A DNA stretch of 64,000 bases, from assembly GCF_004354085.1 (NCBI RefSeq), contig NZ_SMSE01000001.1, positions 1,541,724 through 1,605,723 of the forward strand. The letters run 5' to 3'. Every line of letters begins with the position of its first letter. Positions within the stretch are counted from its first letter, which is position 1. Source of the stretch: Seongchinamella unica (lineage in GTDB: Bacteria; Pseudomonadota; Gammaproteobacteria; Pseudomonadales; Halieaceae). Position numbers and translations under genes: made by a program. Of the stretch, positions 30,941 through 49,010 are shown piece after piece. The notes under the pieces are model-generated. The model was given only the letters and a program-made list of their open reading frames with translations. It was not told the origin of the DNA and did no database searches.

Positions 30941-31165
30941 GGGGGTCTCTGGGCGTGGCTCCAATGGTTGCTCGTGCGGGGGCTTGTGCGCGGGCGCTTT
31001 CCAGTCGACAACACTGCGACAGGCTCAGGGTTAATAGTAGTACGGGTTTTCTGGGGCCGCAGATCAGCCCTGGCTCCGGAGGTCCGCCCGCTGGCTACGG
31101 CTCCGGCGCGACTGGTACTGAACGGGGGCGTCCATCCGCGCGGTGTTTTCGCGCGTATCAGGTGT

Positions 31166-32698: not shown

Positions 32699-32710
32699 TC
32701 GCCGGGAGGG

Positions 32711-34009: not shown

Positions 34010-34204
34010 TGGATGTGCCTTTGAGGCCCGCTGACCAGAATGGGTGGTTGCCTGAAGAATACGGGTGAAGCCGGCTTCCGGTTCAGCGTGACAATGCCCG
34101 CTGATTCCTGTTCGGCATCCGCGCTCTTTTTCGGTAATATGCTTGCAACTGCTAATGATTTAGCCAAAAACAACAACGACGCAGAATTAGAATGCAGGCG
34201 AATA

Positions 34205-34219
34205 ACCGCTTTTAGCGGT
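34205..34219 (+). other. Small hairpin ahead of the TonB receptor start
   Basis: ACCGC/GCGGT, 5-bp stem and 5-nt loop, ending just before the GGGGG ribosome binding site of the receptor. Could modulate ribosome access. Nothing else supportable in the 227-bp gap. Confidence 0.25.
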
Positions 34220-34236
34220 CACGGGGGAAAACAATC

Positions 34237-36471
34237 ATGAATACTATGTTGCGACGGGGTGCCCTGGCGGCATCGATGCTGGCGGTGGCTTCTGCGGGGA
34301 GTGCCCAACCCGGTATTCTCGAAGAAGTGGTGGTCGTGGCCCAGAAGCGGCAGGAGAATCTCCAGGACGTTCCTATTTCGATCACTGCGCTCACCGGGCG
34401 GGATGTCAGGGTTCTGGGCTTGAGCAAGAATGTGGATATCGCCGCACAAACGCCGGGACTGATGTTTGCCGAGGGCAGTGAGCAGCTGATCAGCATATCC
34501 AGCATACGTGGTGTGTCGCAAAACGATGTGTCGTTCCACCAGGAGCCGCCCAATGCGGTTTACATGGACGGTGCCTACATCAGCGTATTGTCGGCATCCA
34601 ACTTCCAGATGTTTGACCTGGAACGGGTTGAGGTATTGCGGGGCCCGCAGGGGACCTTATTCGGGCGTAATGCGACCGGCGGCCTGATGCACTTTATCAG
34701 CCGCAAGCCGACCGCCGAAGCGGGCGGCTATGCCGATCTGCAGGTGGGCGATCATTCGCAGGTCCGTTTCGAGGGAGCAATAAACGGCTCGCTCACTGAC
34801 GGGATATCGGGCAGGCTGGCGGTGCTCGATGAATCCTATGATGGTTATGCCGATAACCTGACAACGGGCAAGGATTTTCGCGGCCGGGATGAGACCGGGG
34901 TACGCGGCCAGCTGTTGTTCGAGCCCACAGACGACCTGGACATCCGCCTTATCGGGTTTTATGCCGAGCAGGACACGGACCTGGGCTTCAAACATTCCGC
35001 CAACGGCTTCGACGAGGACGGTCTGATGTTTACCCTGCCCCGGGAGCTGAATTTCTGGGGCCGCTGCCCGGGCTGTGATCCCTCCGGGCACCGTGACCGC
35101 AGCGCCGATCCGTTCAAGAGTGATTTTGATACCGAGGGCTTCTTCAGTTCAGAGACCACCAATTTTACTGCCCTGGTGGACTGGGACTTCAACGGCATGA
35201 GCCTGGCTTCTGTGACCCAGTACATGGATTACGAGGCTTCTCACCTCGAGGATGGCGAACTGTCCCCGCGCCCGGGATTTGATCTCAACTCCGGACAGGA
35301 CACGGACCATTTCAGCCAGGAATTTCGCCTCAGCGGGATTAGCGGCAGCATGAACTGGGTGGCCGGGATTTACTTCCTGGAGCGGGACGCCAGTGCCAGC
35401 CAGGACATCGATGTCAGCCTGGCTTACTTCGATGATGTGCTCTCCACCTTCGGTGCCATCCCGCCCGGGTTTATTGCCGGCCTGGGAACCACGGACAATA
35501 TGCTCAGCCACTGGAGCATGGACACTTCCGCCACGGCCGTGTTTGGCCAGCTGGATTTCGATCTGGGTGACACCTGGACACTGGTCACGGGGCTCCGCTA
35601 TACACGGGATGAACTGGACTACCGCTTCAGGTCCACCGAGTCGATTGACGGATTCCCGCTTGGGCCCGGCGGCTTGCTGGGCGAGACCGAGGCCTCGGAT
35701 TCGAAAAGCGATGACGACTGGTCTGGCAATATCACCCTGGAATGGCGCCCGATGGAAAACTGGATGACCTACGCCAAACTGTCCCGCGGCAACAAGTCAG
35801 GGGGCTGGAATGCACCGTTTCTCGGTGGCGTGGTCACCGACTTTGACAGCGAGACCCTGGACGCTGGCGAGATTGGCGTCAAATCCCTGCTGATGGATGG
35901 CAGGGCCCGTTTTAACGCCGCCGCGTTTGTTTACGATTACCAGGACTACCAGGGATTCACCTTTGTCGACTTTGCCGCCCAGGTCAGTAATCTTGATGCC
36001 GAGGTCACCGGCCTGGAAGCAGAGTTTTCCATCTCTCCCGGCGCCGGTTGGGATATTTCCCTGGGCCTGAGCCTGCTGGATGCACAGATCAAGGACGTGG
36101 TGTTGCCGGCCGGTCGCGTCACTGACAGGGATATGCCGCTGGCGCCGGATACCTCCTTCAACGCCATGGTGCGCAAGGGCTGGGATGTCCTTGGCGGCGA
36201 ATTGGCGGTGATGCTGGACTATGTCTGGGTGGACGACTTCTACTCGGAAACCCTGAATAATCCCTCTGGCCTCATCGAGTCCTACGATGTGAGCAATGCC
36301 CGGGTCAGCTTCAGGACCGGCAACGAGCGCTGGGAGTTTGGCCTGATCGTACGCAACCTGACCGATGAGGAAATCCTGGTTTACCGAACTCCGATCGACG
36401 TCGGGTTCAACCAGGATCATTACGCCAGGCCGCGCTGGGTCAGCGGTCAGGTGACTTATTTCTGGAACTGA
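34237..36471 (+). CDS. TonB-dependent outer-membrane receptor
   Basis: 744 residues. Signal peptide ends AGSAQPG (~residue 25). The TonB-box-like EEVVVVAQKRQENLQDVPISITAL opening is typical of marine gammaproteobacterial receptors. The plug domain includes IRGVSQNDVSFHQEPPNAVYMDG and VEVLRGPQGTLFGRNATGG. The beta barrel ends with a C-terminal aromatic signature (VSGQVTYFWN). Substrate unknown; receptors of this subgroup often take up hydrophobic or carbohydrate substrates. Convergent with the TIR-STAND gene; no obvious uptake partners adjacent. Confidence 0.92.
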   Translation: MNTMLRRGALAASMLAVASAGSAQPGILEEVVVVAQKRQENLQDVPISITALTGRDVRVLGLSKNVDIAAQTPGLMFAEGSEQLISISSIRGVSQNDVSFHQEPPNAVYMDGAYISVLSASNFQMFDLERVEVLRGPQGTLFGRNATGGLMHFISRKPTAEAGGYADLQVGDHSQVRFEGAINGSLTDGISGRLAVLDESYDGYADNLTTGKDFRGRDETGVRGQLLFEPTDDLDIRLIGFYAEQDTDLGFKHSANGFDEDGLMFTLPRELNFWGRCPGCDPSGHRDRSADPFKSDFDTEGFFSSETTNFTALVDWDFNGMSLASVTQYMDYEASHLEDGELSPRPGFDLNSGQDTDHFSQEFRLSGISGSMNWVAGIYFLERDASASQDIDVSLAYFDDVLSTFGAIPPGFIAGLGTTDNMLSHWSMDTSATAVFGQLDFDLGDTWTLVTGLRYTRDELDYRFRSTESIDGFPLGPGGLLGETEASDSKSDDDWSGNITLEWRPMENWMTYAKLSRGNKSGGWNAPFLGGVVTDFDSETLDAGEIGVKSLLMDGRARFNAAAFVYDYQDYQGFTFVDFAAQVSNLDAEVTGLEAEFSISPGAGWDISLGLSLLDAQIKDVVLPAGRVTDRDMPLAPDTSFNAMVRKGWDVLGGELAVMLDYVWVDDFYSETLNNPSGLIESYDVSNARVSFRTGNERWEFGLIVRNLTDEEILVYRTPIDVGFNQDHYARPRWVSGQVTYFWN

Positions 36472-36490
36472 GGGCGCTGACTTGGTTGCG

Positions 36491-39400
36491 TCAGTATTGC
36501 TGAGCTGCCGCTGATGTCGAGGGCTGTTCGTTGGCCGCCTGCTGTAGCGCATTCTGTGCGTCCAACTCCGTCCAGGCCTGACCCCGCTTGAATTCCTCTT
36601 CGTAATTGCCGGCGGCCAGGTGCTGTTTTGTCTGGTCGCTATAGGCCTCAAGGTACATGATTTCCAGGGGTTCAAGGGTCACGCCCAGGTGATCCAGCGA
36701 ATGTGACAGGGCGCCGAGCATGCGCGCAGCCTCCGCATATTGTTCCCGGATCACCAGTACCCCGGCCATGGCCAGCAGCGCCAGGTTGGAAATCATGGGA
36801 TAGTCGAAATTGCTGGCCAGGCCCTGGGCTTCAAGTATCAGTTTCGACGCAGCTTTCCAGTCACCCTCCTGCAAGCTGAAGTGTGCCAGGTTAATCAGTA
36901 TCTGCGCCGGCCAGAAGCTGTTGCCGTACTCGCGGAATATGGCCAGAGCCTGTTGCCAGGACTCTGCAGCACCCGCCACGTCCTCCTCTGCGAGGTTGAT
37001 AATGCCGTTTGAAATCAGCGAGAGCGCATAATAATAGCGGTCGTCGCTGTTTTTGAAGGTCTCCATGGCCAGATCGCAAAGCTCGCGGCCTCCGGGTATC
37101 TGCAACACTGCCCGGGTCAGACCCAGGGAAAGGCAGACCCTGCCGAGATCGCTCTCGTCCCCGTATGTGGTGTACATCTGGTGGCTGGTCTCGAGGTTGG
37201 GTACTGCGGCGGCATAGTCGCCGGCCAGCGCCTCCAGCCAGGCAATGGTTTCGTAGATCAGTGCCTTATCCCGGGAGGGGGGTGCGGTCGAGAAAACCTC
37301 CAGCGCGCGCTGGGTCCACTCCCGGCCTTCGGTGAATTTTCCGCGCTGGATCCAGAACCACCATTGCGACTGGAATGCCCGTGTCAGTTGTCCGGCGTCA
37401 CCCTGCTCCAGGAACCAGTCCATGGCAGCGCGAACATTGTCGCCATCCGCCAGCATCCGGGTAACGCATACCCGCTGTCCCCTGGAGGTGATTCCCGGTG
37501 CCAGCGATTCAGCCATTTCCAGGAAGTGACCGGCGTGCCGCTCACGCACCAGCGCGTCCTCACCGGAGGCGGCCAGCTGACCCCGGCCATATTCGCGAAT
37601 GGTTTCCAGCATCCAGAACCGCGGCTCCAGCTGTTCCGGATCGTGCTTGAGCAGGCTCTTCTTGGTCAGGGACTCGATACCATCCAGCAAATCCATCATG
37701 CTGCCGGATTCTTCGATAACGATCTCGGCGGAGGAAAGGGAAAACCCGCCTCTGAACACGCTGAGCAAACGAAACAGTGCCTGCTCTTCCGCATCCAGCA
37801 AGTCGTAGCTCCAGGCCACCGTGCTGCCCAGGGTTCTTTGTCTTTCCGGCAGATCGCGCGACCTGGCCTTGAGGATGTCCAGCGATTGGCTCAGGCTCTT
37901 GAGCAGCGCCTGCGGCGACAGGACGGTCAACCGCGCCGCGGCCAGTTCCAGCGCCAGGGGAAGTCCGTCCAGCTTGATACAGATGGCGGCGATGGCTTCT
38001 GCATTGTCGTCGGTCAGTTCAAAGTCCCGGCGATACTCACGCACCCTGTCGAGGAACAGCTTGATCGACTCGAATTCAGCCAGCGCCTGGTGTCGCTTCG
38101 AGGGTTCCCTGTCGGGTATCTCCAGGGGCTCCAACTGGTATTCCTGCTCCCCCCGAATGAGGAGTGGCTCGCGGCTGGAGACCAGGATTTTCAATTCAGG
38201 CACACCATCGAGTAGTGCCGGCAGGCTGGATGCCCCTTCAATGATCTGTTCAAAATTATCCATGACCAGCAGCACACGGCTGTGCTGCAGTCGATGGATT
38301 AATGAATCCAGGATGCTCTGGCCGGGCATTTCCTTGACGCCGAGGGTTTCTGCGATCGTTGGAATGACCAGGGTGTGGTCGGTGACCGCGCTCAGCTTTA
38401 CCAGGTAGACCCCATCGTGAAAGTGGGCCTCCAGTTGACCCGCCGCTTCCAGGCTCAGCCGTGATTTGCCGGTGCCCCCTGGCCCGGTGAGGGTAAGCAC
38501 GCGCACGGAGTCACCGCTCAGCATGTCGCAAATGTCGGACAACTCTCCAACACGGCCAACAAAGCTGGACAGTGCCCTGGGCAGGTTGGAGGGGCGGTTG
38601 GTCAGTGAGGCGATGGGTGGAAAGTGACAGTCCAGGCCCTGGATCTCGAGGTCGTGTAATACCTCGGGATAGGGCATGTTCTTCAGCCTGTGGCTGCCAA
38701 GCTTGCGATAGGCGACCCCCGGTGGCAGGGCGCTGTCGGCCACATGGGTCAAGACGTCTGCCGAGAGAATCACCTGGCCGCCACTGCCGATACTGGCAAT
38801 TTGTGTCGCCCTTTGCACGTCGACCCCGAAATACTGGTCGCGTACCAGCGTGGGTTGCCCGGTGTGCAGTCCCATGCGCACCTGTATTGTGTTCCCCTGG
38901 GGCCTGGCCATCGCCGCGCAGCCTTTCTGGATATCGATGGCCGCCTTGACTGCCTGCACCGCATCGACAAAGGCGAACATGCAAATGTCGCCGCGAACCT
39001 CCACTTCAAAGCCATTGCGCTGTTGGCTGAGTCCACGAACCAGCGCCCTTAATTGTGATAGCGCCTCGTCAAATTCATCGCCCAGTCGCATGGCGAGTTC
39101 ATGGGCGCCGACCACGTCCAGGCGCAGCAGGGTCACCATACCCATTGGCAGGTCGGGTAGTTTGCTGCTCTGTACCCGGGTATCGGTCATCAGGTCGCTG
39201 AGGGCAGCGCCGAGTTTGTCCTGGTAGCTCTGGGGCGTCAGTTCATGTTTGATAATGGCCTGCATGGAGCCGAGCTGCAGCCGTTGGCCCGGAGACAGGG
39301 TGGCGGGCGCAAGGTGCACCACCAGCATGGGCTTTTCGAGATCCAGGGCATAGTGAATTTCGTTGCCGCAATGGCGTGACAGGGCCGCGTTGGGGGTGAC

Positions 39401-39613
39401 GTAGTAAATGACCAGCGAGCAATCAGACAAGCGCTGGGCAAGCTGGGCGGTCCAGTCCTTGCCCGCCTCCAGACCCTCGTCATACCAGACGTTATAACCG
39501 AGCTGCCTCAGCTGCTCGATTTCGGCGTAGACGAGTTCATCATCACTGTGTGCGTAGGAAACGAAAATGAAGGGCTCATTTCCGGAATACGCCTTGAACG
39601 GTTTTTCTGCCAA
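36491..39613 (-). CDS. TIR / cyclase-homology / STAND ATPase / TPR multidomain protein
   Basis: 1040 residues from a TTG start. Residues ~13-130 are a TIR domain (FIFVSYAHSDDE, WYDEG) with a Glu at 85 (RHCGNE) where NADase TIRs place the catalytic residue. Residues ~155-320 match a class III nucleotide cyclase domain: metal Asps D166 and D209 are kept, but the conserved Asn and Arg are Q267 and Q271, so cyclase activity is doubtful. Residues ~345-640 are a STAND/NB-ARC-type ATPase (Walker A GPGGTGKS 377-384, Walker B LLVMDNFE near 450, SSREPL, GLPLALELAAARL). The rest is TPR-like helices. It follows tfuA by 89 nt on the same strand; that gap has only a 5-bp hairpin without a U tract, so co-transcription is possible. 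Confidence 0.85.
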   Translation of the reverse strand: MAEKPFKAYSGNEPFIFVSYAHSDDELVYAEIEQLRQLGYNVWYDEGLEAGKDWTAQLAQRLSDCSLVIYYVTPNAALSRHCGNEIHYALDLEKPMLVVHLAPATLSPGQRLQLGSMQAIIKHELTPQSYQDKLGAALSDLMTDTRVQSSKLPDLPMGMVTLLRLDVVGAHELAMRLGDEFDEALSQLRALVRGLSQQRNGFEVEVRGDICMFAFVDAVQAVKAAIDIQKGCAAMARPQGNTIQVRMGLHTGQPTLVRDQYFGVDVQRATQIASIGSGGQVILSADVLTHVADSALPPGVAYRKLGSHRLKNMPYPEVLHDLEIQGLDCHFPPIASLTNRPSNLPRALSSFVGRVGELSDICDMLSGDSVRVLTLTGPGGTGKSRLSLEAAGQLEAHFHDGVYLVKLSAVTDHTLVIPTIAETLGVKEMPGQSILDSLIHRLQHSRVLLVMDNFEQIIEGASSLPALLDGVPELKILVSSREPLLIRGEQEYQLEPLEIPDREPSKRHQALAEFESIKLFLDRVREYRRDFELTDDNAEAIAAICIKLDGLPLALELAAARLTVLSPQALLKSLSQSLDILKARSRDLPERQRTLGSTVAWSYDLLDAEEQALFRLLSVFRGGFSLSSAEIVIEESGSMMDLLDGIESLTKKSLLKHDPEQLEPRFWMLETIREYGRGQLAASGEDALVRERHAGHFLEMAESLAPGITSRGQRVCVTRMLADGDNVRAAMDWFLEQGDAGQLTRAFQSQWWFWIQRGKFTEGREWTQRALEVFSTAPPSRDKALIYETIAWLEALAGDYAAAVPNLETSHQMYTTYGDESDLGRVCLSLGLTRAVLQIPGGRELCDLAMETFKNSDDRYYYALSLISNGIINLAEEDVAGAAESWQQALAIFREYGNSFWPAQILINLAHFSLQEGDWKAASKLILEAQGLASNFDYPMISNLALLAMAGVLVIREQYAEAARMLGALSHSLDHLGVTLEPLEIMYLEAYSDQTKQHLAAGNYEEEFKRGQAWTELDAQNALQQAANEQPSTSAAAQQY

Positions 39614-39702
39614 GGGAGTCTTCTTAACTTGCGAGTATCCACTAGTCTGACGCGATTTGCGCTGATTGTCAGCCTGCTAATCCACAGCCGCCGGAAAAAT
39701 TT

Positions 39703-40881
39703 CTACCGGGTTTGTTTGTGGTCAAGTTTCCTGAAAGCGATCGCCTGGGCCAGATCCTGCCGCAGCGCCTGCAGCATGGGCCAGATTGGTGCGCCCGGTG
39801 TGAACCTGTGCCCGATTTCGCGCCAGTCGTCGAGGCCGTGACCCCGGGCGATAATCTGTTGTGCGTGTTGCAAACAGCGCTCGTCCGCGCTCAGGGAAAT
39901 ATCGCCAGCCCTGTCCCGGGCATAAGTCATAGCCCGATACCTGAAGACCAGGCCATCGATCGCAGGGTCTTTGAGCAGCGTTGGCCAGAGCTCATCCGGG
40001 CATGCCGGGTCGGGGTTGTGAATGTCGACTGCTCCCCGCAACGAGCTCAGTTGCCGGTAGCGTCCGCTGGCCAGCAGCCACTGCCACAGGTGGGTTTTCA
40101 GTGTCAGCGCATCGAGCCCGGCGGTGGCGTCGTGGCCTCTTTCCCGCGATTCACGCTCGGGGAGGGTGAGGCCGATGCCGGCCCCCGGCGCCTGCGACAG
40201 CGCTGGCGAATCCCGCAATAGACGCGCTGTGCGCCGCAGGGCGCGCGCCGCATCCAGTCGCTTGAGGTCACAGGCCGCCAGCGACCGGCGCAGCGCGCCG
40301 TCGCGGTCGTCGATGCCCGCCTGCTGCAGCAGCTCCCGCCAGTTGCGATCAGGGTAGTAGGTATTTCGGGCCGCTTCGATGATGTGGTGGGCGTGGTCAG
40401 GGCCCAATTGCCCCTGACGCAGGTGCCTGGAGACGGAATAACGTACATTCACCAACGGCACCGAGGCGACCCTGTAGCCTGCGTCTTCGATAAAGGTAAG
40501 CGCAACCTCGTCGTCTGATTCCAGTACTCCCCGCCGGTACAGTCGATAGATAGTGCCTACTCCGTGCATGCCAGCGGGCCAGCATTCGGCCGCTCTGATG
40601 GCGCCCATGCTGGAGGCCCCGAGCACACAGGCGCCATCTGCCAGCACGTCGAGTACCTCCCGCGGGGGAATGGCCAGTTGTTGTGAAAACACACCGTCGA
40701 GAATAACGAAAACGCTGAAACCCAGGGTTCGGTCCCGGTACAGGTCGCCGCGGGCCACAGGCGGCATCAACTGGGCTCCGGGCAGGTACTGCTGAATTTC
40801 CTCATGGCTAATGCTTGGGCCAGCGTACACAACGGGAGGGAAAAGCAGGGTGTTCACACCAGGTGCCGCAGGCATCGCCAC
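39703..40881 (-). CDS. TfuA-like protein
   Basis: 392 residues from a GTG (or ATG at 40875). The TfuA core is at residues ~15-150: VVYAGPSISHEEIQQYLPGA, PPVARGDLYRD, FVILDGVFSQQLAIPPREVLDVLADGA (split) and VLGASSMGAIRAAE. TfuA proteins partner YcaO enzymes, notably in peptide or protein backbone thioamidation. The C-terminal ~200 residues are helical, Arg-rich and not recognised. It overlaps the ycaO 3' end by 28 nt, so the pair is translationally linked. Confidence 0.88.
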   Translation of the reverse strand: MAMPAAPGVNTLLFPPVVYAGPSISHEEIQQYLPGAQLMPPVARGDLYRDRTLGFSVFVILDGVFSQQLAIPPREVLDVLADGACVLGASSMGAIRAAECWPAGMHGVGTIYRLYRRGVLESDDEVALTFIEDAGYRVASVPLVNVRYSVSRHLRQGQLGPDHAHHIIEAARNTYYPDRNWRELLQQAGIDDRDGALRRSLAACDLKRLDAARALRRTARLLRDSPALSQAPGAGIGLTLPERESRERGHDATAGLDALTLKTHLWQWLLASGRYRQLSSLRGAVDIHNPDPACPDELWPTLLKDPAIDGLVFRYRAMTYARDRAGDISLSADERCLQHAQQIIARGHGLDDWREIGHRFTPGAPIWPMLQALRQDLAQAIAFRKLDHKQTR

Positions 40882-42083
40882 CCCGCGCGCCGGCGATTGA
40901 CGGCAAACGAGGTCAGCCCGGGCACCCGCACCCGAACCACGGCAAGAGCCATGTCCGGGTGGCTCACATCCGCTGCGACGACGCTGCCAAAGCCCGCATT
41001 GCGCAACTGTCGCAGCAGGTAATCCAGGTCGTGCAGCAGGTCGGTACTGGAAAATGAGCTGACGCTATCGAAGGGCAGCCCGGCAACGGACGCCGCGGAT
41101 TTGTCATGGCTTGCGCGCCCCAGGCTCAGGCTGTTGTAGGAGTCCCGGGCTCCCTGGATGACCGCCAGCCGCGACTGCACGGCTTCGGTAATGGCCCGGT
41201 ACAGCGCAATTTCCGCACAGGGACTGGCGCCAAAGCCGGGAAAAATGCGCCGTCGCGACCCCTGAGAGTGAGGAAACTCAGGGTCGATGATGCGACAGCG
41301 AATGACCGGAACATCGATGTCTGAGACGATCTGGCTGAGCTCCAGGGACTGTCCCGCCCGCTCTATTTGCGCTACCAGTGCCATTGCCCCCGGCGGCAAG
41401 GTGCTGCTGTCGATCGGCAAATCCATCGCCTGTTGCTGTTGTGGTTCGCCGAAGGCACTGACAAACAGCAGCTGGCCCAGGCAGTCGCGTTCGATCACTT
41501 CGCAAAGACCGTGAACCACTGCCTCCAGCAGGGTATTCCCCGCCGCCAGGCCGTTGGTGTCAACGTCAGTCAACAATCCCTCCGCCGGCGGGCTGCAGAC
41601 CAGGTCCAGCGGTAAGAGCGTTGTGCTGTCCTGCAGCAGGTCCCAGCCCCGGAACCAGCGATATTCCCGTTGCGGTGTGTAGTTGGAATCGCTGGGAAGT
41701 TCCAGACTGGCCGGGTCGCAGGGATTGTCCCCTGCGGCTTGCAGTGAGTCAAAACTGCCGGTGAGCAGGGATGGAAAGTGCCTGGACTCTGCCGCGAATC
41801 GCTCCACCGCCTCACTCATGGCGCTAACCCGGGCTGATGTGCGGTCGCGGCCTTTACCCAGGTGCGTGGTAAGGTCAGTGGCCAGCGGGGTGGTGGCGCT
41901 GAAAACCGGCAGCTGCAGTCGGTCCAGGGGGGTCAGATCCGCGACCCGGGTAATCGGGACATGACGAGCCAGGCTGTCAAGGCGGGCTTCGGTGTCTTCG
42001 GGAGGGCAGGTCCGGTGAGAAAGAGGAGAGAGTTTTTGGCTGGGGGCCCGGTGCAGCGCCTCCCAGCCAGGTGTCAGAACCAA
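40854..42083 (-). CDS. YcaO-family peptide-backbone-modifying enzyme
   Basis: 409 residues from an apparent TTG start; the exact start is uncertain because no good ribosome binding site is visible. YcaO ATP/Mg-binding elements: SARVSAMSEAVERFAAES (residues ~82-100), ALLEAVVHGLCEVIERD-like (here NTLLEAVVHGLCEVIERDC, ~180-198) and ITEAVQSRLAVIQGARD (~315-332). The C-terminus ends GWRCLRHLV and lacks the proline-rich PxPxP tail common in azoline-forming cyclodehydratases, which with an adjacent TfuA points to thioamide-type or other amide chemistry. Lies 19 nt after the precursor candidate. Confidence 0.9.
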   Translation of the reverse strand: MVLTPGWEALHRAPSQKLSPLSHRTCPPEDTEARLDSLARHVPITRVADLTPLDRLQLPVFSATTPLATDLTTHLGKGRDRTSARVSAMSEAVERFAAESRHFPSLLTGSFDSLQAAGDNPCDPASLELPSDSNYTPQREYRWFRGWDLLQDSTTLLPLDLVCSPPAEGLLTDVDTNGLAAGNTLLEAVVHGLCEVIERDCLGQLLFVSAFGEPQQQQAMDLPIDSSTLPPGAMALVAQIERAGQSLELSQIVSDIDVPVIRCRIIDPEFPHSQGSRRRIFPGFGASPCAEIALYRAITEAVQSRLAVIQGARDSYNSLSLGRASHDKSAASVAGLPFDSVSSFSSTDLLHDLDYLLRQLRNAGFGSVVAADVSHPDMALAVVRVRVPGLTSFAVNRRRAGWRCLRHLV

Positions 42084-42102
42084 GACGCGGGTCTTGGACT
42101 AA

Positions 42103-42312
42103 TCAGAACATACCGCCATTTTCTTCGTCGTCATCACTCAACGCCATGGCACCCATGGCCACATGCTCTTCACTGACCGTTTTATGGAAAGCGACGAGGC
42201 TGTCTACCATGTCCTGGGTGGTGCGTTTGTTTATGGCGTCTCGGACTTCATTAGAGAGGTTGGATGTATCGATCACGCCAGCTGCTTCTAATTGTTCTAT
42301 CGGTGTAGCCAT
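42103..42312 (-). CDS. RiPP precursor peptide candidate
   Basis: 69 residues from the ATG at 42312, which has an AAGGAA ribosome binding site; upstream frame to 42507 runs through the promoter and is rejected. Residues 1-~48 read like a helical leader (IEQLEAAGVIDTSNLS, VRDAINKRTTQDMVDSLVAF). The C-terminus is short, acidic and glycine-containing: AMGAMALSDDDEENGGMF. There is no Cys, and only one Ser and no Thr after residue 47, so azole formation is not favoured. It is the first gene of the transcript that continues into ycaO and tfuA, the usual place for a precursor. No family recognised. Confidence 0.72.
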   Translation of the reverse strand: MATPIEQLEAAGVIDTSNLSNEVRDAINKRTTQDMVDSLVAFHKTVSEEHVAMGAMALSDDDEENGGMF

Positions 42313-42381
42313 AACATTTCCTTGTCTTTCCTGGTTTGCCAGTGACCGTGGCCTTCCCGGTCGTTCTGGACGGGACTCTCG

Positions 42382-42410
42382 TTTATACTGCAGGGCCCCG
42401 GAAGCGTCAA
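42382..42410 (-). promoter_or_regulatory. Sigma-70 promoter of the precursor-ycaO-tfuA operon
   Basis: TTGACG, 17-bp spacer, TATAAA on the minus strand: near consensus and the best sigma-70 match I noticed in the window. Predicted start near 42375, about 63 nt ahead of the precursor ATG. It lies in the 169-bp divergent gap to the diiron protein gene. Confidence 0.7.
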
Positions 42411-42481
42411 GCTCCCGACAGTGCCCCAATGCCCCGGGACCAGGCGGGCCACTGCCCGCAGGGACACCTCTCTGACTATGG

Positions 42482-43180
42482 ATGGATGGAATGACGGTTG
42501 ATACCAATGCAGTAAGTCACAGCCAGCAGCTCAGGGCGGCCCTTGCAACCTCGGGCCTGCCTCTCACGCTGATGTATTCGGAATTCTGGGGTAATGATCG
42601 GGTGGGCGAGCTGGTCGTTCCGTTTCTGGTGCTGATGCACCAGGTGGTTCGCGCCAGCGTCCCGCTGATGGAGGCTGCCAGCGCAAAAGCCGCAGAAACC
42701 GCGCCCCGGGATCCCCTGGCAGCCAGATTACAGGCCTACATGGATGCTCACATCGAGGAGGAGCGGCACCACGACACCTGGATCATGGAGGACCTGGAGT
42801 CCGCCGGCCTGGACAGGGATTCTCTCCTGGCGCAAACGCCCGACAGCCAGGTGGCCGCCCTGGTGGGGGCCCAGTACTACTGGATATACCATCATCATCC
42901 GATCGCCCTGCTGGGCTACATACGACTGCTCGAGGGCAAGCCCCCGTCGGCAGGTCACATCGAACGACTGCGGCAGGTCAGTGGCCTGCCCGAATCGACA
43001 TTTCGCACCTATCAGCTGCACGGTGAGCTGGACCCGGATCACCTGCAGGAGTTTGACACCTTGCTCGACGCCCTGGACCTCAATCAGGAGCAGTTTGAGC
43101 TGGTGCGCCAGAGTGCGGTCTATACGGCACACCAGCTGGCCAATTGCCTGGGTACGCTGATCAAGCGGAATAGCGAGTAA
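42482..43180 (+). CDS. Heme-oxygenase-like diiron protein (iron-containing redox enzyme family)
   Basis: 232 residues, all-helical. Candidate metal ligands: HIEEERHHDTW (residues ~90-100), the His-rich YYWIYHHHPIALLGY (~135-150) and HGELDPDHLQEFD (~177-190); spaced acidic and His residues of this kind mark heme-oxygenase-like diiron oxidases (HDO). HDOs carry out O2-dependent N-oxygenation or C-C cleavage. It is divergent from the YcaO operon and 5 nt upstream of the S41-like protease gene, so it probably acts on the same peptide; this is inference. ATG at 42482 or 42491. Confidence 0.75.
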   Translation: MDGMTVDTNAVSHSQQLRAALATSGLPLTLMYSEFWGNDRVGELVVPFLVLMHQVVRASVPLMEAASAKAAETAPRDPLAARLQAYMDAHIEEERHHDTWIMEDLESAGLDRDSLLAQTPDSQVAALVGAQYYWIYHHHPIALLGYIRLLEGKPPSAGHIERLRQVSGLPESTFRTYQLHGELDPDHLQEFDTLLDALDLNQEQFELVRQSAVYTAHQLANCLGTLIKRNSE

Positions 43181-43185
43181 CCCTT

Positions 43186-45546
43186 ATGAAGACACCTTAT
43201 ACGCATCTGGACGCGGTAGAGGGCCTGGAAAATTGCGATGTTGGCCTCTTGCACGCGGCGGGTATCGACACCCTGCATGACCTGGCGGAATCCGATCCCG
43301 CGGAACTCACCAGGTTAGTGAACCACTTGCAGTGCACGCACGCGGGCGAGGAATCGGAGCTGTCGCAAGGGGAAGTGGAACGCTGGATCGACAGCGCTCG
43401 CGCCCGGGACCCGATCTCGGTGGCCCATACCGAGCTGGAGGGGCGCCTGAACGAAGTGGGCAGGCTGATGACCCTGGACCAGTGGCGGGATTTTGTTCTC
43501 AGTTTCGACCCGCTCAGCACCGAGCAGATGGAGTTCATTGTTGATCAGACCCGGCTGGTCATCGAACAGATGTATGTCCACCTCAGCCTCAAACGCATCC
43601 GTCGCGCGGTGGACCCGGTCCAGGCCCTGAGCCTGCTGCGGCAGCGAATCGAGGACGACCTGGACCACTGGCAGTTTCATAACGAGATGCTGAAAATCCT
43701 CAAATCCCTCGGTGACATCCATACGGCCTACAGATTGCCGCCGCCTTATCGGCATGCGGTTGCCTTTTTGCCATTTCTGCTGCAGAAGAGCTACACCCGG
43801 GAGGCAGAAGGCGATCAGTGGCAGTCGCGCTACCTGGTCACCCATACCCTGTGGCAAGGCCCGCAACTGGATATCCCCCTGCAAGCGGGCGATGAAATCA
43901 TCAGTTGGAACGGTGTTCCGATGGCCGAGGCAGTGGCCTTCCACGCTGAAGAGGTCGAGGGCAGTAACCCGGCAGCGGCTCACGCTTTCGGGCTTCAGTT
44001 CATGACCCTGCGCTGGTTGGGCGCTGCCTTCCAGCCCACTTCACCCTGGGTGATCATCGAATACCGTAACAGGGAGGGGGTGACCAAGGAACTGCGGCTG
44101 TCATGGCGGATCATTTACCTCAATCCCGATATCGATGGCGACTACATGACCCGCGCCCAGTACCTGTGGTTCATGTTCAACCCGAACAACGAGCCCGCCG
44201 ACGAGCCTGAGGGTTTCAACCCGGCGCTACAGATTGCCAACGCCACGGCCATGAAGCTGTTTGCCGGACACAAGGACGGTGATGCGCGGGAACAGCAGGA
44301 GGATGCCCGCAATCGTGACCAAACCAGAAGGACGGCCCGCAAGGGCGGTCGTCGCATCGAGCTCAAGCGGCAGCGCGCCAAATCACCGGCGGCGCCAGCG
44401 GCCGATGAGCACAATCCGCTGCAGGTGGAGAGCTTTCTCAAGGGCATTCTCGAGCCGGAAATCCTCGAGGTCGATGGCCAGCGGCTGGGCTATATCGGCA
44501 TTCGCGCCTTTCCCTTCCGCAATAAAACCGTTGATGCCGGTCGCCGGGACTGGGAAACCGAGTTCGTGCTGGAGTTTCGTCGACTGTTGGCCCATATGCC
44601 CAGCGATGGGCTGATTATCGATATCCGTGGCAACCCCGGCGGCTCGATTACCAATGCAGAAATGTTGCTGCAATTGCTGTGCCCCCGGGAAATTGAGCCG
44701 CTGCCTTTCCAGTTTCTCGCCTCACCACTGACCCGCCAGATCAACAGGTCCAACCCCTGGGGCAGTTCCATCAGCACAGCGCTCAGGACCGGCGGTCTGT
44801 TCAGCCGCGGGCTGCCACTGAGCCAGCCCGGGGATCTCAACCATTGGGGGCAGGAGTATTTCGGCCCGGTGGCTCTGCTGACCAGTGCACTGTCATACAG
44901 TGCGGCCGATCACTTTGCCGCCAGCTTCGAGGACCACAAGGTCGGTATTGTCGTCGGCATCGATGAAACGACCGGTGGCGGTGGTGCCAATGTCTGGTTC
45001 TACGGCAGACACCTGCTGCCCAAGCTGCCCCCCGAGATGCAGCAGGCAGCGCGGGAAAAGTGGCCTGCGGACATCAACCTGCAGTTTGCGGCGCGTCGGG
45101 TCATGAGAATCCGCGAGCGCGCCGGTGAGCCCATTGAGGAGATCGGAGTGAGGACCCGCTCACGACTCCAGTATCGGATGACCCCCGACGACCTGGTGAA
45201 CGGCGAGCGAGGGCTGCGGGAATTTGTCGCTGCCCGCCTGGCGCCCATGGATCACTACGACCTGCGGGTCACTCCCCATAAGGTGGAGGGGGCAGTGCGC
45301 ATTGAAGTTATCGGGCAAAATATGAACTGGGTCGAACTGCGCAGTAACGGGCGCGGTATCGGCAGCCAGCCGCTGGTGAACGGCGCAGATGGCTGGAGCA
45401 AGCCCGTGTCATTCGATCTCGCGCAATTGAACGGGGATGAGGACATCATCGAAATTCACGGATTTGTGGAACACCATCGAGCAGGCAAGCTGGGATCGGA
45501 GCAGGTAGCCCGCTACAAGCATCGCCTGTCAGATTCCTCCCATTAG
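43186..45546 (+). CDS. S41-family (C-terminal processing type) peptidase without signal peptide
   Basis: 786 residues. The N-terminus (~5-45) resembles a helix-hairpin-helix unit (GLENCDVGLLHAAGIDTLHDL). Residues ~230-300 look PDZ-like (IPLQAGDEIISWNGVPMAEAVAFH). A charged, Arg/Lys-rich insert lies at ~365-405. The S41 core follows (LGYIGIRAF, GLIIDIRGNPGGSI, LLTSALSYSAADHFAASFEDH with the probable nucleophile Ser in SYSAAD). No signal peptide is seen, unusual for a family that mostly works in the envelope, so a cytoplasmic role such as precursor processing is possible. Co-directional and 5 nt after the diiron gene. Confidence 0.82.
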   Translation: MKTPYTHLDAVEGLENCDVGLLHAAGIDTLHDLAESDPAELTRLVNHLQCTHAGEESELSQGEVERWIDSARARDPISVAHTELEGRLNEVGRLMTLDQWRDFVLSFDPLSTEQMEFIVDQTRLVIEQMYVHLSLKRIRRAVDPVQALSLLRQRIEDDLDHWQFHNEMLKILKSLGDIHTAYRLPPPYRHAVAFLPFLLQKSYTREAEGDQWQSRYLVTHTLWQGPQLDIPLQAGDEIISWNGVPMAEAVAFHAEEVEGSNPAAAHAFGLQFMTLRWLGAAFQPTSPWVIIEYRNREGVTKELRLSWRIIYLNPDIDGDYMTRAQYLWFMFNPNNEPADEPEGFNPALQIANATAMKLFAGHKDGDAREQQEDARNRDQTRRTARKGGRRIELKRQRAKSPAAPAADEHNPLQVESFLKGILEPEILEVDGQRLGYIGIRAFPFRNKTVDAGRRDWETEFVLEFRRLLAHMPSDGLIIDIRGNPGGSITNAEMLLQLLCPREIEPLPFQFLASPLTRQINRSNPWGSSISTALRTGGLFSRGLPLSQPGDLNHWGQEYFGPVALLTSALSYSAADHFAASFEDHKVGIVVGIDETTGGGGANVWFYGRHLLPKLPPEMQQAAREKWPADINLQFAARRVMRIRERAGEPIEEIGVRTRSRLQYRMTPDDLVNGERGLREFVAARLAPMDHYDLRVTPHKVEGAVRIEVIGQNMNWVELRSNGRGIGSQPLVNGADGWSKPVSFDLAQLNGDEDIIEIHGFVEHHRAGKLGSEQVARYKHRLSDSSH

Positions 45547-45573
45547 CGGCCAGCTGGCTCGATAGCGGGCAGG

Positions 45574-46374
45574 CTAGAACATGGTGGTGTAAATGGCGCC
45601 CGTGCAGCAACGCTCGAAACCGTGTTTCAGGGCGATGGGCGCGGAGGTTTGCTGCTTGGCCTGTATCAGCAGTTGCGAGCACCCCAGTTCCACAGCCAGG
45701 GCCCTGCGTACTTCCAGCATGTTGCCGTAGATGCCCCGGCCGCGGTACGCCGCCAGTGTGCCGGAACCACAGAGTAGTGCCGTTATCCCGTCTTCAAGCA
45801 CGAGCAGGCAACTGAAAGCCACCGGTTTCTCGCTTTCGTAGGCAATGTAGGTATAGATTCGGTTGCCCGCGCGGCGAAACTGCCGGGTCAGCTCCATCAT
45901 GGATTCGCCCATGCCGGAACCCAGCGCCCCATAAGCTTCGTCGATAAGGCCCGGGTACACCGGATCTGCCTCCCCGGCCTCGTCCAGTTCTTTTATCACC
46001 AGTCCTGTCAGCGGACTGACCGCGAGCTGGGTGTCAGTGGCCAGGCGCATGCCCCAGACGCCCCCGCCGTGGCTGGCGCCCAAGTGCTGTAATTTTTCGC
46101 CCAGATCGGCAGGTGTGGAGAGCTCGCTCACCAGCCAGTAAAACCCCCCGGCGCCGCGCTCGCGGAAGTAGTCTGAGCAGAATTCGTAGGCGCTTTCCAG
46201 CGTTTGCCCGTCCAGCCGTATGGCGCTCACTTTCTGGGTTTCAAAGAAAGGACTGTTGGCCAGCGACGACGTGGCGAAGCCCTCCAGATGCTGGACTTGC
46301 AGGCTTTCGATGTCTTGGCTGGGGTGAAATAAAAACGAGTTTTCGAACGCTTCAACGAAGCGAGGGTCTGCCAT
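45574..46374 (-). CDS. GNAT-family N-acetyltransferase
   Basis: About 266 residues from the ATG at 46374 (AAAAGGA 6-9 nt upstream). The N-terminal ~140 residues are an unassigned domain with FATSSLANSPFFETQKVSAIRL and FYWLVSELSTPADLG. The C-terminal GNAT fold has the acetyl-CoA loop AAYRGRGIYGNML near residue 215 and ends GFERCCTGAIYTTMF. Acceptor unknown. Convergent with the S41 gene and divergent from the amidoligase gene. Confidence 0.8.
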   Translation of the reverse strand: MADPRFVEAFENSFLFHPSQDIESLQVQHLEGFATSSLANSPFFETQKVSAIRLDGQTLESAYEFCSDYFRERGAGGFYWLVSELSTPADLGEKLQHLGASHGGGVWGMRLATDTQLAVSPLTGLVIKELDEAGEADPVYPGLIDEAYGALGSGMGESMMELTRQFRRAGNRIYTYIAYESEKPVAFSCLLVLEDGITALLCGSGTLAAYRGRGIYGNMLEVRRALAVELGCSQLLIQAKQQTSAPIALKHGFERCCTGAIYTTMF

Positions 46375-46557
46375 GGTCGTATCCTTTTCATTAAATGAAA
46401 ACCATAACGCCGGCCCACGGAGCGGGCTTCCTTTTGCTGTAAGGAGTGTAGCCAATGCGGCTATTAATGCAACTGGGGCACACTGATCTCGCGCTGGCGA
46501 ATTTACAGCCACGCCAATCTTCGCTACGCTGCGTAGTCATTCTACAGGCGGGTCGAT

Positions 46558-47595
46558 TTGTGCAAGGCGCGCCTCCCCCAAAACCCTATCGTGGTGACTG
46601 TGAATAAGTATCTGCAAATCGAAAGGCCGGAAGTGACAGCGACTGGCGAAAGCCGCCGGGTCGGTTTTGAGCTGGAGTTTTCCGGATTAACACTGGACGA
46701 AATATCCGCGGCTGTAGCCGAGTCCATGCAGGGACAGGTAGAGCCCTTGAGCCGGATGGAGTCTATCGTCAAGGTCGAAGAACTCGGCGACTTCAAGGTA
46801 GAGCTCGACTGGCAGCTGGGTAAGGTCATGGCGCGGTATCGGCAGCAACACGCCGGGAGTCCCGATGATGAAGACCCCCTAATGGACTGGATCAGGGATG
46901 TTGCCAGTGAGGTGGTGCCGGCAGAAGTGGTCTGCCCGCCCGTTGCCGTGGACAAGCTGGATTGTCTGGACGTGATGACTGAGACGCTTCGCGAGGCGGG
47001 CGCTGTCGGTACCCACGGGGCTCCGCATTACGCCTTCGGCGTTCATATCAACCCGGAATTACCCGATCTTGAGCCGACTACGATCGCGGCTTACCTCAAG
47101 GCATTTTGTGTTGCCCAGAACTGGCTGGTCAAAACCCATGAGGTGGATCTGACGCGGCGTATTACACCCTATATAGACCTCTTTCCTGCGGCCTACGTGG
47201 CCACGGTACTGAACTATGACGAGAGTATCAGTCTGACGCAATTGATGGATGACTATCTGCGGCACAACCCGTCCAGGAACCGGGCGCTGGACCTGCTGCC
47301 GTTACTGCGGCATCTCGATGAAGACAGGCTTGTCGCCGTCATCGATGATGACCGGATAAAATCTCGTCCTACCTTTCATTACCGGCTGCCAAACTGCAGC
47401 ATTGAGGAACAGGGCTGGTCACTGAGCGATAGCTGGAATCTGTGGTGCGTGATTGAGAGCCTGGCGCACTCACCGGATATCCTGCAATCGATGGAGCAGC
47501 AGTGGCTTGATCGTCACCACAAGCTTATCAAGCTCGATGAACCTTCATGGCACAAGCAACTGGACAAGATTCGAAAAGACCTGTTATCGGAGTAA
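46558..47595 (+). CDS. Amidoligase-family enzyme (COOH-NH2 ligase)
   Basis: 345 residues from an apparent TTG with AGGCGGG upstream; GTG codons at 46591-46600 are alternatives. The amidoligase pattern is visible: RRVGFELEFSGLTLDEI (glutamine-synthetase-like strand with metal-binding Glu residues), FKVELDWQLG, and HYAFGVHINPELPD containing a His/Asn metal and ATP site. These ATP-dependent ligases are thought to form amide bonds, such as gamma-glutamyl links, in peptides or small molecules. The 3' end overlaps the glutamine amidotransferase gene by 49 nt, a tight pairing. Product unknown. Confidence 0.82.
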   Translation: MCKARLPQNPIVVTVNKYLQIERPEVTATGESRRVGFELEFSGLTLDEISAAVAESMQGQVEPLSRMESIVKVEELGDFKVELDWQLGKVMARYRQQHAGSPDDEDPLMDWIRDVASEVVPAEVVCPPVAVDKLDCLDVMTETLREAGAVGTHGAPHYAFGVHINPELPDLEPTTIAAYLKAFCVAQNWLVKTHEVDLTRRITPYIDLFPAAYVATVLNYDESISLTQLMDDYLRHNPSRNRALDLLPLLRHLDEDRLVAVIDDDRIKSRPTFHYRLPNCSIEEQGWSLSDSWNLWCVIESLAHSPDILQSMEQQWLDRHHKLIKLDEPSWHKQLDKIRKDLLSE

Positions 47596-48230
47596 CCGGT
47601 AACAATCGATGGTGGTCACCTTCCTGGTACTGCATCCGCTTCTCGGTTTTTCTTGCGGGTGGAACTGCCAGGCGGATATCCACGTCCTGCCGTGTGCCTA
47701 TAGATTCACTGGACGGTATCGTGATCAGTGGCGGAGACGATATCCATCCGACCATTTTCGGCGAGGAGCCGCTGCCCGAAACATTCTATGACCACGACCG
47801 TGACGAACTTGAGCAGGAGTACATCCGCGATGCCATGGAGCGAAACCTGCCCATGCTCGGCATCTGCAGGGGCCACCAACTGATTAATGCCTTGCTCGGT
47901 GGATCACTGCATCTGAATATTCGGACAATGCGCAAGAAGACGCTGAACCGGCGCGGTTTACTACCAACAAAAACCGTGAATATCGTTATACCCAGCCGCT
48001 TGCACGACATCGTCGGGCGCGAGCGAATCAGGGTTAACAGCCTGCACTACCAGGCGGTGAGAGAACTCGCCCCCGACCTCGACTGCATAGCCAGTGACCT
48101 CGATAATTTCTGCCAGTCGGCCACCATTGCTGACAAGAATATTCTCGGGGTCCAGTGGCATCCCGAATACCTGTTCTATCTGGCTACCCACAGAAAACTG
48201 TTCCGCTGGCTGGTTCAGGCTGCCAGCTGA
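47547..48230 (+). CDS. Class I glutamine amidotransferase-like / gamma-glutamyl hydrolase (C26)
   Basis: 227 residues. RPVIGVTGNNRWWSPSW at the N-terminus, GIVISGGDDIHPTIFG, the nucleophile Cys in MLGICRGHQLINALLGG (residue ~112) and the His/Glu pair in GVQWHPEYL (~209) give a complete Cys-His-Glu triad. PuuD-like enzymes hydrolyse gamma-glutamyl amides. Encoded inside the 3' end of the amidoligase gene, so it may trim or recycle the ligase product. Confidence 0.88.
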   Translation: MAQATGQDSKRPVIGVTGNNRWWSPSWYCIRFSVFLAGGTARRISTSCRVPIDSLDGIVISGGDDIHPTIFGEEPLPETFYDHDRDELEQEYIRDAMERNLPMLGICRGHQLINALLGGSLHLNIRTMRKKTLNRRGLLPTKTVNIVIPSRLHDIVGRERIRVNSLHYQAVRELAPDLDCIASDLDNFCQSATIADKNILGVQWHPEYLFYLATHRKLFRWLVQAAS

Positions 48231-48248
48231 ATCGACTCCGGTAGCGGC

Positions 48249-49010
48249 TTATAACGCCAGTCGCATTTCCACCTCGCCACCCTCGACCTTGCCGGTTTCG
48301 GTAAATCCCTGTCGCCGGTAGAATTCCGCGGGACCTTGCGGATGATCGATGTAGCCCAGCAGGAGTTCCTTCGCTCCCGGGCGGGTCTGCACGTACTCGA
48401 TCAGCAGCGCAATCGCCTGCGCACCGTAGCCGCGCTTCTGGAACTGGGGTGCGATCATGAAACGCCACAGGTAATACGCCTGTTTATCGGTGTCGTCTTC
48501 CAGCATGATGAATCCGACCGGCGCCTTGCCGGCGTAGATCGCACGGAACCAGGCCGCGTCGTTGAACATGGCCTCGGCCAATGAATAGGCATTGGGGGCG
48601 ACAAAGCTGCTTTGCGGGTAGGTCATCAGTTCGCTGAGCAGGCAGATCCCGGTGACCGTTTTGGCGGAGATTTCACTCAGGGTAACGGACTCGTAGGGTC
48701 CCAGTTGGGCGGTCAATGCCGTGCCTAATTGCCCGAGCAGCGGGCCATACTCCGATTCCAGCGCGGGCTCGGCGGCGACACCCTGGCGAATAATGTGCAA
48801 TCCGGTTTCCCACCAGTGGTTGTCGTGCTGGTCGGGCTCGAGTACTTCCCGCAGCAGCACCCGCTGGCCAAATTTCACGCGATAGCTGAACTCCGCCGGG
48901 TAGACCGGCAGTAGCGCCGTTGAGGCGGCAATGAACGCCTCCAGTGGCTGAACCAGGCCGGCGGGCAGGTCCGTGTCGCGTGCTTTGCGTATCAGCTCTT
49001 CGATTTCCAA
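48249..49010 (-). CDS. GNAT-family N-acetyltransferase with N-terminal extension
   Basis: 253 residues. The first ~100 residues (IEELIRKARDTDLPAGL...HWWETGLHIIRQG) are a helical domain not recognised. The C-terminal GNAT domain has WRFMIAPQFQKRGYGAQAIALLIE with the acetyl-CoA loop QKRGYG at residue ~195, then FYRRQGFTETG. Convergent with the amidotransferase gene, 26 nt after the aconitase start-distal end on the same strand as acnA. Substrate unknown. Confidence 0.8.
   Translation of the reverse strand: MEIEELIRKARDTDLPAGLVQPLEAFIAASTALLPVYPAEFSYRVKFGQRVLLREVLEPDQHDNHWWETGLHIIRQGVAAEPALESEYGPLLGQLGTALTAQLGPYESVTLSEISAKTVTGICLLSELMTYPQSSFVAPNAYSLAEAMFNDAAWFRAIYAGKAPVGFIMLEDDTDKQAYYLWRFMIAPQFQKRGYGAQAIALLIEYVQTRPGAKELLLGYIDHPQGPAEFYRRQGFTETGKVEGGEVEMRLAL

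Follow-up and report, generated by a model that had tools for sequence, protein, structure and literature searches.

A YcaO-TfuA locus of Seongchinamella unica and a wider family of short peptides encoded beside heme-oxygenase-like diiron proteins

The region analysed was a 64,000-nucleotide stretch of the Seongchinamella unica genome (contig NZ_SMSE01000001.1, positions 1,541,724 to 1,605,723), referred to here as the window. Within it, genes for a 69-residue peptide, a YcaO protein and a TfuA protein lay together on the minus strand, divergent from genes for a heme-oxygenase (HO)-like diiron oxidase/oxygenase (HDO) and an S41 peptidase. A first-pass annotation, made from this sequence alone, had interpreted these five genes as a system for a ribosomally synthesized and post-translationally modified peptide (RiPP). 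All five open reading frames (ORFs) were found where it had placed them, but its gene set was incomplete, since a conserved regulator beyond tfuA had been missed. Comparison with other genomes showed that the peptide and HDO genes recur as a pair, with YcaO and TfuA present in only some of the loci. The principal features were as follows:

42103..42312, minus strand: 69-aa peptide gene, proposed RiPP precursor (ORF list, leave-out profile test, synteny)
40854..42083, minus strand: YcaO of the TfuA-associated type, proposed thioamide synthase (PF02624, 1.7e-66)
39703..40881, minus strand: TfuA, proposed sulfide donor partner of YcaO (PF07812, 4.6e-39)
42482..43180, plus strand: HDO (Haem_oxygenas_2 PF14518, 3.4e-11)
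43186..45546, plus strand: S41/CPAF-like serine peptidase (Peptidase_S41 PF03572, 4.6e-14; PDZ_4; N-terminal DUF4332)
36491..39613, minus strand: regulator of 1040 aa with TIR, nucleotide-cyclase-like, NB-ARC and TPR domains (Pfam)
42382..42410, minus strand: sigma-70-like promoter TTGACG-17-TATAAA, upstream of the peptide operon

The ycaO and tfuA reading frames overlapped by 28 nt, and an AAGGA motif closely preceded the ATG of the peptide gene. The starts of the peptide and HDO genes were separated by 169 bp and the HDO and S41 genes by 5 nt, both as first described. The near-consensus promoter claimed for the minus-strand operon was also borne out, being one of only four sites in the 64 kb, counting both strands, to match the consensus at 10 or more of its 12 positions; a stricter rule, demanding T at the last position, left it unlisted.

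Both by Pfam and by nearest solved structures, the adjacent ycaO and tfuA were of the thioamidating type. The best solved relative of YcaO was MJ1094 (6pe3, 4.2e-29), with the azoline-forming TruD and LynD well behind, while 6xp8 was the only solved relative of TfuA (6.7e-35, over residues 17-222). No other YcaO was found in the genome (1 match). TfuA has been described as a Ser-Lys hydrolase that acts on ThiS-thiocarboxylate and so provides YcaO with sulfide (PMC13185837).

An AlphaFold2 model of the HDO, built from 12 sequences, had a pLDDT of 89.8. Foldseek placed 3dde first, followed by UndA, a TenA homologue and CtCADD, the last within the first six. Residues E94, H97, E151, H180, D184 and H187 were invariant over the 12 sequences, as were E93, H90, H96, H137 and H139. 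Following the three-histidine, three-carboxylate ligand rule for such enzymes (PMC13108848), the former six were assigned by pattern as candidate ligands for two irons; the protein combines a predicted HO-like fold with this candidate pattern. UndA and CtCADD resemble the model in fold (TM score about 0.6-0.7) and in this pattern, but share only around 15% identity with the window HDO and work with other partners, and the substrate in the window is presumably a peptide. A second, distant HO-like protein was encoded elsewhere in the genome (contig C5:78369-78869, minus strand; 81 bits, compared with 368 for the HDO of the locus).

Searching plasmids with YcaO and HDO as queries turned up Sinorhizobium fredii. 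In the rhizobial locus L007, genes for a regulator, TfuA, YcaO and a 67-aa peptide lay on one strand with the HDO gene divergent; identity with the window was 43% for HDO, 42% for YcaO, 36% for TfuA and 34% for the regulator. A pattern-based scan of 84,980 genomes with a two-sequence HDO alignment then gave 12 loci (10 rhizobial, 1 from Streptomyces and 1 acidobacterial). Adding L007 and L008 to the ten brought the rhizobial set to 12, although several came from near-identical strains and the independent cases are therefore fewer. In all 12 the order regulator-TfuA-YcaO-peptide was retained, divergent from HDO, with the short precursor gene next to ycaO. The rhizobial peptide gene had a median ratio of non-synonymous to synonymous substitution of 0.33 (36 pairs from 9 sequences) and, judged from these comparisons, is evolving as a protein under purifying selection. 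A YcaO-TfuA locus from Streptomyces cadmiisoli (L009) was rejected as a relative, having no HDO match and no such peptide by profile.

A homologue of the regulator adjoined tfuA in all 12 rhizobial loci, and adjoined the peptide-HDO pair in a further locus, L134. The regulator (36491-39613) belongs to the conserved gene set. Its TIR domain was lacking in the L007 and L134 homologues, and its cyclase-like domain may, on reading, be degenerate.

The window peptide (MATPIEQLEAAGVID...EENGGMF) had a leader of the aroma-sacti kind and a hydrophobic C-terminus. It contained no cysteine and, by reading, no repeats; nor were there DNA repeats in 42090-42490. It matched nothing in Pfam or NCBIfam, and a simple homology search of 140 genomes of the family found it in no genome but its own, with zero matches in plasmids. 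That route having failed, relatives were reached through the HDO gene instead. An initial leader profile included the peptides that it scored, and was superseded by a leave-out test. When the other HDO-adjacent peptides then known were pooled in a profile excluding the window, its peptide ranked first among 1242 reading frames (E = 0.0026, next 3.1), and none of 2000 shuffles scored as high. With the rhizobial peptides also removed, it was still first (E = 0.037, next 1.7). All family peptides read ended in F, L, W, V or I; that of the window ends GGMF. The pooled profile and the position of the gene therefore support a kinship, though a weak one, between the window peptide and the HDO-adjacent peptides, without a strong pairwise match.

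Across 49 loci, the peptide lay beside this HDO subfamily in 48. These loci comprised the window, 12 rhizobial, 30 Streptomyces and 4 acidobacterial examples and two further ones (L134 and L135), and so covered three phyla or more. YcaO and TfuA occurred in 13 of them; a radical SAM match took their place in 11 annotated Streptomyces loci, and six had neither close by. No family peptide was found at E <= 2 in 41 other loci (35 from distant HDO matches and 6 reached through TfuA, YcaO or S41; most about 3.5 kb long).

In a sample of 199 Streptomyces genomes, taken from a larger set, HDO was present in 33. The peptide was beside HDO in 29 of the 30 Streptomyces loci, and 27 of those 29 peptides ended GGALF. 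The exception (L069/L092, genome G1064) had HDO, two radical SAM matches and a cyclase regulator, with no recognizable peptide. In L023, a radical SAM gene, the HDO gene and a gene for a 69-aa peptide ending AGGALF were followed by those for a cyclase-AAA-TPR protein and a subtilase. Radical SAM and cyclase-AAA-TPR matches were found in every one of the 11 annotated loci, which were L023 (itself the source of the queries) and ten picked from the 30. Among these 11 (L023 and L085-L094), at least 7 had, after the cyclase-AAA-TPR gene, an ORF sharing the start motif TW.LR, checked by Pfam as an S8 peptidase in L023 and L085; a GAF protein after it was checked in L085 only.

HDO was found in 4 of 149 acidobacterial genomes, including that of L024, and the peptide stood beside it in all four (two by reading, two by profile), directly upstream of HDO in L024. 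A kinase gene followed, as checked against the library in L024 and L107 and by reading in L106 and L108, and a peptidase of pro-kumamolisin type came after the kinase in L024 and L106. None of the four stretches (10-18 kb) gave a YcaO or TfuA match, and a weak radical SAM match lay about 8 kb from HDO in L109, from the L024 region. In two precursor-like frames with provisional starts, in L107 (8193-8519, minus strand) and L108 (7068-7412, plus strand), an Ala/Lys-rich stretch resembling histone H1 (AKKAPAKKA...) preceded the aroma-sacti-type leader; that of L107 had a histone-like match in NCBIfam.

HDO searches of broader taxa gave mostly distant matches. In the class of the window, 37 of 369 genomes matched, at no more than 86 bits apart from the window gene; in the class of rhizobial genome G876, 7 of 190 matched, at no more than 75 bits apart from G876 itself. 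Through the phylum of the window there were 43 matches in 398 genomes, where, besides the window, only L120 (246 bits) and L121 (167 bits) exceeded 87 bits. The subfamily is therefore rare outside rhizobia and Streptomyces. The two strong hits were refetched with wider flanks as L134 and L135, and in both the peptide was beside HDO by profile (E = 1.7e-10 and 5.6e-07), and neither had a match to YcaO, TfuA or radical SAM within 18 kb. L134 had a divergent arrangement like that of the window, a regulator sharing 37% identity with the one there and a peptide ending PMMF; in L135, a C1 peptidase gene adjoined HDO.

The leader pattern is shared with the aroma-sacti proteins of NCBIfam NF045560, whose cut-off is 30 bits. 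One Streptomyces peptide (P0002, from L023; 82.6 bits), three acidobacterial peptides (L024, 37 bits; L106, 34.5; L107, 30.0) and that of L134 (33.2) reached this value, while L135 (19.9) and the two rhizobial peptides scanned (L013, 17.0; L007, 12.5) fell below it.

In the genome of S. unica, these genes occupied a variable block. In the congener G029, 34013-46587 (12.6 kb) was replaced by approximately 190 bp, while 31132-34012 and 46588-48231 were collinear; the block ends are alignment ends and so approximate, and collinearity was compared in G029 only. The block contained the TonB receptor, regulator, TfuA, YcaO, peptide, HDO, S41 and GNAT genes, of which two have not yet been described:

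34237..36471, plus strand: TonB-dependent receptor, convergent with the regulator
45574..46512, minus strand: GNAT-like acyltransferase (Pfam), with an internal ATG as the likelier start

TfuA was found in 1 of 140 family genomes, as was the peptide, and at the level of the order 3 of 390 genomes matched the window TfuA. Because the other seven congeners had neither TfuA nor the peptide, the comparison favours gain of the block over its loss. There was no tRNA in the window to suggest a mobile element, and no exact direct repeat of at least 9 bases between the border stretches compared. Just beyond the block, Amidoligase_2, C26 peptidase/GATase and GNAT genes stood in a row (46558-49010); the amidoligase and C26 genes (46558-48230) were rejected as members of the system, being collinear in the congener without the block.

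The S41 protein had no signal peptide on reading of its N-terminus, in agreement with the first-pass annotation. It weakly resembled CPAF (PDB, 5.5e-06; NCBIfam, 64.2 of 250 bits). CPAF-like S41 peptidases use a Ser-His-Glu triad in place of Ser-Lys. His179, Ser572 and a late C-terminal Glu motif were kept in four aligned S41 sequences, and the Lys of tail proteases was absent. As a bait, it produced no confirmed viral contig and four plasmid records. A protein on a Mesorhizobium onobrychidis plasmid (L012:4249-8178, plus strand; 1309 aa), annotated as an S8 peptidase, also held an S41 domain of the window type. No S41 homologue was detected in the 12 genomes of L013-L024, in a search that had no positive control.

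Taking the gene order, homology, predicted fold, conserved candidate ligands and peptide-HDO pairing together, the locus is probably a horizontally gained RiPP locus in which YcaO and TfuA thioamidate the 69-aa precursor, the diiron enzyme oxidizes the core and the S41 enzyme releases it. We infer the chemistry, the order of steps and the parts played by protease and regulator as follows. The N-terminal half of the peptide (LEAAG...EVRDAI...) would be the leader that the enzymes recognize, and the core would span roughly residues 45-69 at the C-terminus and end in ENGGMF. YcaO would use ATP to activate a backbone amide, and with sulfide from TfuA this amide, most likely that of a Gly in the C-terminal NGGMF, would become a thioamide. 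The diiron enzyme may then act on the core with O2, by desaturation, hydroxylation or decarboxylation, and its most plausible target lies near the hydrophobic C-terminal residue, because every family peptide read has one of the five terminal residues named above. The S41 enzyme would probably release the core, and the TIR-cyclase-NB-ARC-TPR protein may sense a signal or the product.

Several observations weigh against this interpretation. No product or mass shift is known for the locus. As first noted, no exporter was apparent, and neither an exporter nor a ThiS gene occurred among 12 genes scanned with Pfam (32714-49010), the rest of the genome not having been searched. YcaO and TfuA both scored under the curated McrA equivalog cut-offs (TIGR03266, 209.3 of 365 bits; NF033432, 184.2 of 235.2 bits), so that on this measure they are classed as relatives of the McrA thioamidation pair and not as members. 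Heme oxygenases and TenA proteins also matched the HDO model in Foldseek; fold alone is therefore no proof of a diiron enzyme, and the ligand pattern must carry the case. A profile made only from rhizobial peptides put the window peptide second (E = 3.5, equalled by 9 of 2000 shuffles), and in 4828 reading frames did not report it at E <= 5; nor did the peptide match NF045560. Lastly, none of the 12 rhizobial loci contained an S41 homologue.

This last point bears on the closest alternative, for which we would give somewhat less than an even chance: that the S41, GNAT and TonB receptor genes are passengers in the block and the system consists of regulator, TfuA, YcaO, peptide and HDO only. The GNAT of the window was likewise absent from all 12 rhizobial loci, and the three of four S41 plasmid records that were opened (L010-L012) had no other gene of the locus. 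Against it, the S41 gene directly follows HDO on the same strand, and peptidases of other classes occurred in family clusters, though mostly in a different position (S8 in Streptomyces, pro-kumamolisin type in two acidobacterial loci, C1 by HDO in L135). The five-gene RiPP system first proposed thus stands for peptide, YcaO, TfuA and divergent HDO, which occurred together throughout the rhizobial set, and fails there for S41; likewise, of the diiron-protease pair expected to be conserved, the diiron half holds and the protease half does not. A weaker form of the protease claim survives, in that G029 lacks the whole block including S41 and some family clusters have a peptidase of another class. 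The S41 protein is proposed, with uncertainty, as a leader peptidase.

An unlikely alternative is a signalling or immunity-like system, where the modified peptide keeps its leader and acts within the cell as a ligand or trigger of the TIR-cyclase-NB-ARC-TPR protein, and is not a secreted product. It would suit the lack of an apparent exporter, the TIR domain of the window regulator and the large ATPase or kinase signalling protein that was encoded in the window, in 12 of 12 rhizobial, 11 of 11 annotated Streptomyces (one the query source) and 4 of 4 acidobacterial loci, and in L134. However, cyclase and kinase companions are also found in ordinary YcaO natural-product loci (NCBIfam TIGR03903, 'TOMM system kinase/cyclase fusion') and may only regulate, and the possible degeneracy of the cyclase-like domain would tell against such a role. 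Least of all do we expect that YcaO-TfuA modifies a larger host protein, as with McrA in methanogens or uL16 by the YcaO of Escherichia coli, the small gene being unrelated or accessory: the closest curated families are McrA thioamidation proteins, uL16 thioamidation is widespread in Pseudomonadota (PMC13063428) and this is the sole YcaO found in the genome, but TfuA is too rare in the family and order for a housekeeping function, the uL16-type YcaO model gave only 40.6 of 700 bits, suspected uL16 enzymes are stated to have no TfuA gene nearby (PMC13063428) and the peptide is kept beside YcaO in every rhizobial locus.

Loci of this kind were already known. The earlier remark that no characterized pathway with this set was known is qualified by thiovarsolin (varA, varY, varT, varO; PMC6511847), where YcaO, TfuA and an HO-like protein likewise work on a ribosomally made peptide, VarO being likened here by its description. 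Deletion of varO left only two of four compounds, from which the authors infer loss of a dehydrogenase; this is the single experimental footing for the mechanism proposed above. The thiovarsolin precursor is described as repeating, unlike the window peptide, and no ATP-grasp, MFS or amidinotransferase gene was among the 12 window genes scanned. Sinorhizobium TfuA loci with an HO-like gene are mentioned in one sentence of another paper (PMC8120280), and these are very probably the rhizobial relatives found here, with the same order and homologous genes. Those relatives differ from the window in having no S41 or GNAT and, in L007, a regulator without TIR; the passages of that paper that were accessible contain neither the regulator, nor a link to aroma-sacti leaders, nor the radical SAM loci of Streptomyces. 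The methanogen McrA pair (MJ1094 and 6xp8) provides the nearest solved relatives of YcaO and TfuA, but no McrA role is plausible in the window. In thioamitides, of the thioviridamide type, a C-terminal Cys becomes aminovinyl-methyl-cysteine (AviMeCys) through dedicated enzymes; the window peptide has no Cys, and no AviMeCys enzyme genes were among those 12.

What was surprising was the wider family, with its constant diiron enzyme and leader. In a literature search covering titles, the starts of abstracts and passages, with subscription papers mostly outside its reach, no description of a peptide-HDO family was found. From the comparison of loci, the peptide and diiron enzyme seem to form the core, with YcaO-TfuA as a module that can be exchanged. 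We tentatively suggest, as a possibility that we hold with less than even confidence, a RiPP class extending over Pseudomonadota, Actinomycetota and Acidobacteriota, in which selection would act on the peptide-HDO pair and not on YcaO-TfuA. HDO would oxidize the hydrophobic C-terminus of the precursor, for instance by UndA-like oxidative decarboxylation of the last residue; between lineages, the second maturase would be swapped (YcaO-TfuA, radical SAM or neither of them), as would the peptidase (of S41, S8, pro-kumamolisin or C1 type, or absent), and a cyclase/STAND or kinase sensor would be kept.

HO-like diiron enzymes are known to act on amino acids and fatty acids, and the sole documented role on a ribosomal peptide encountered in the sources available was that of VarO. 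A family that keeps the same diiron enzyme with a single kind of leader and varies the other maturases offers a clean natural comparison set: loci with peptide and HDO and no nearby YcaO or radical SAM would isolate the diiron chemistry, and the remainder would show what is added. The short precursor-enzyme pairs may serve for testing where thioamides and O2-dependent changes are placed. The family also raises the question of whether such peptides signal within the cell through the large sensor proteins encoded beside them.

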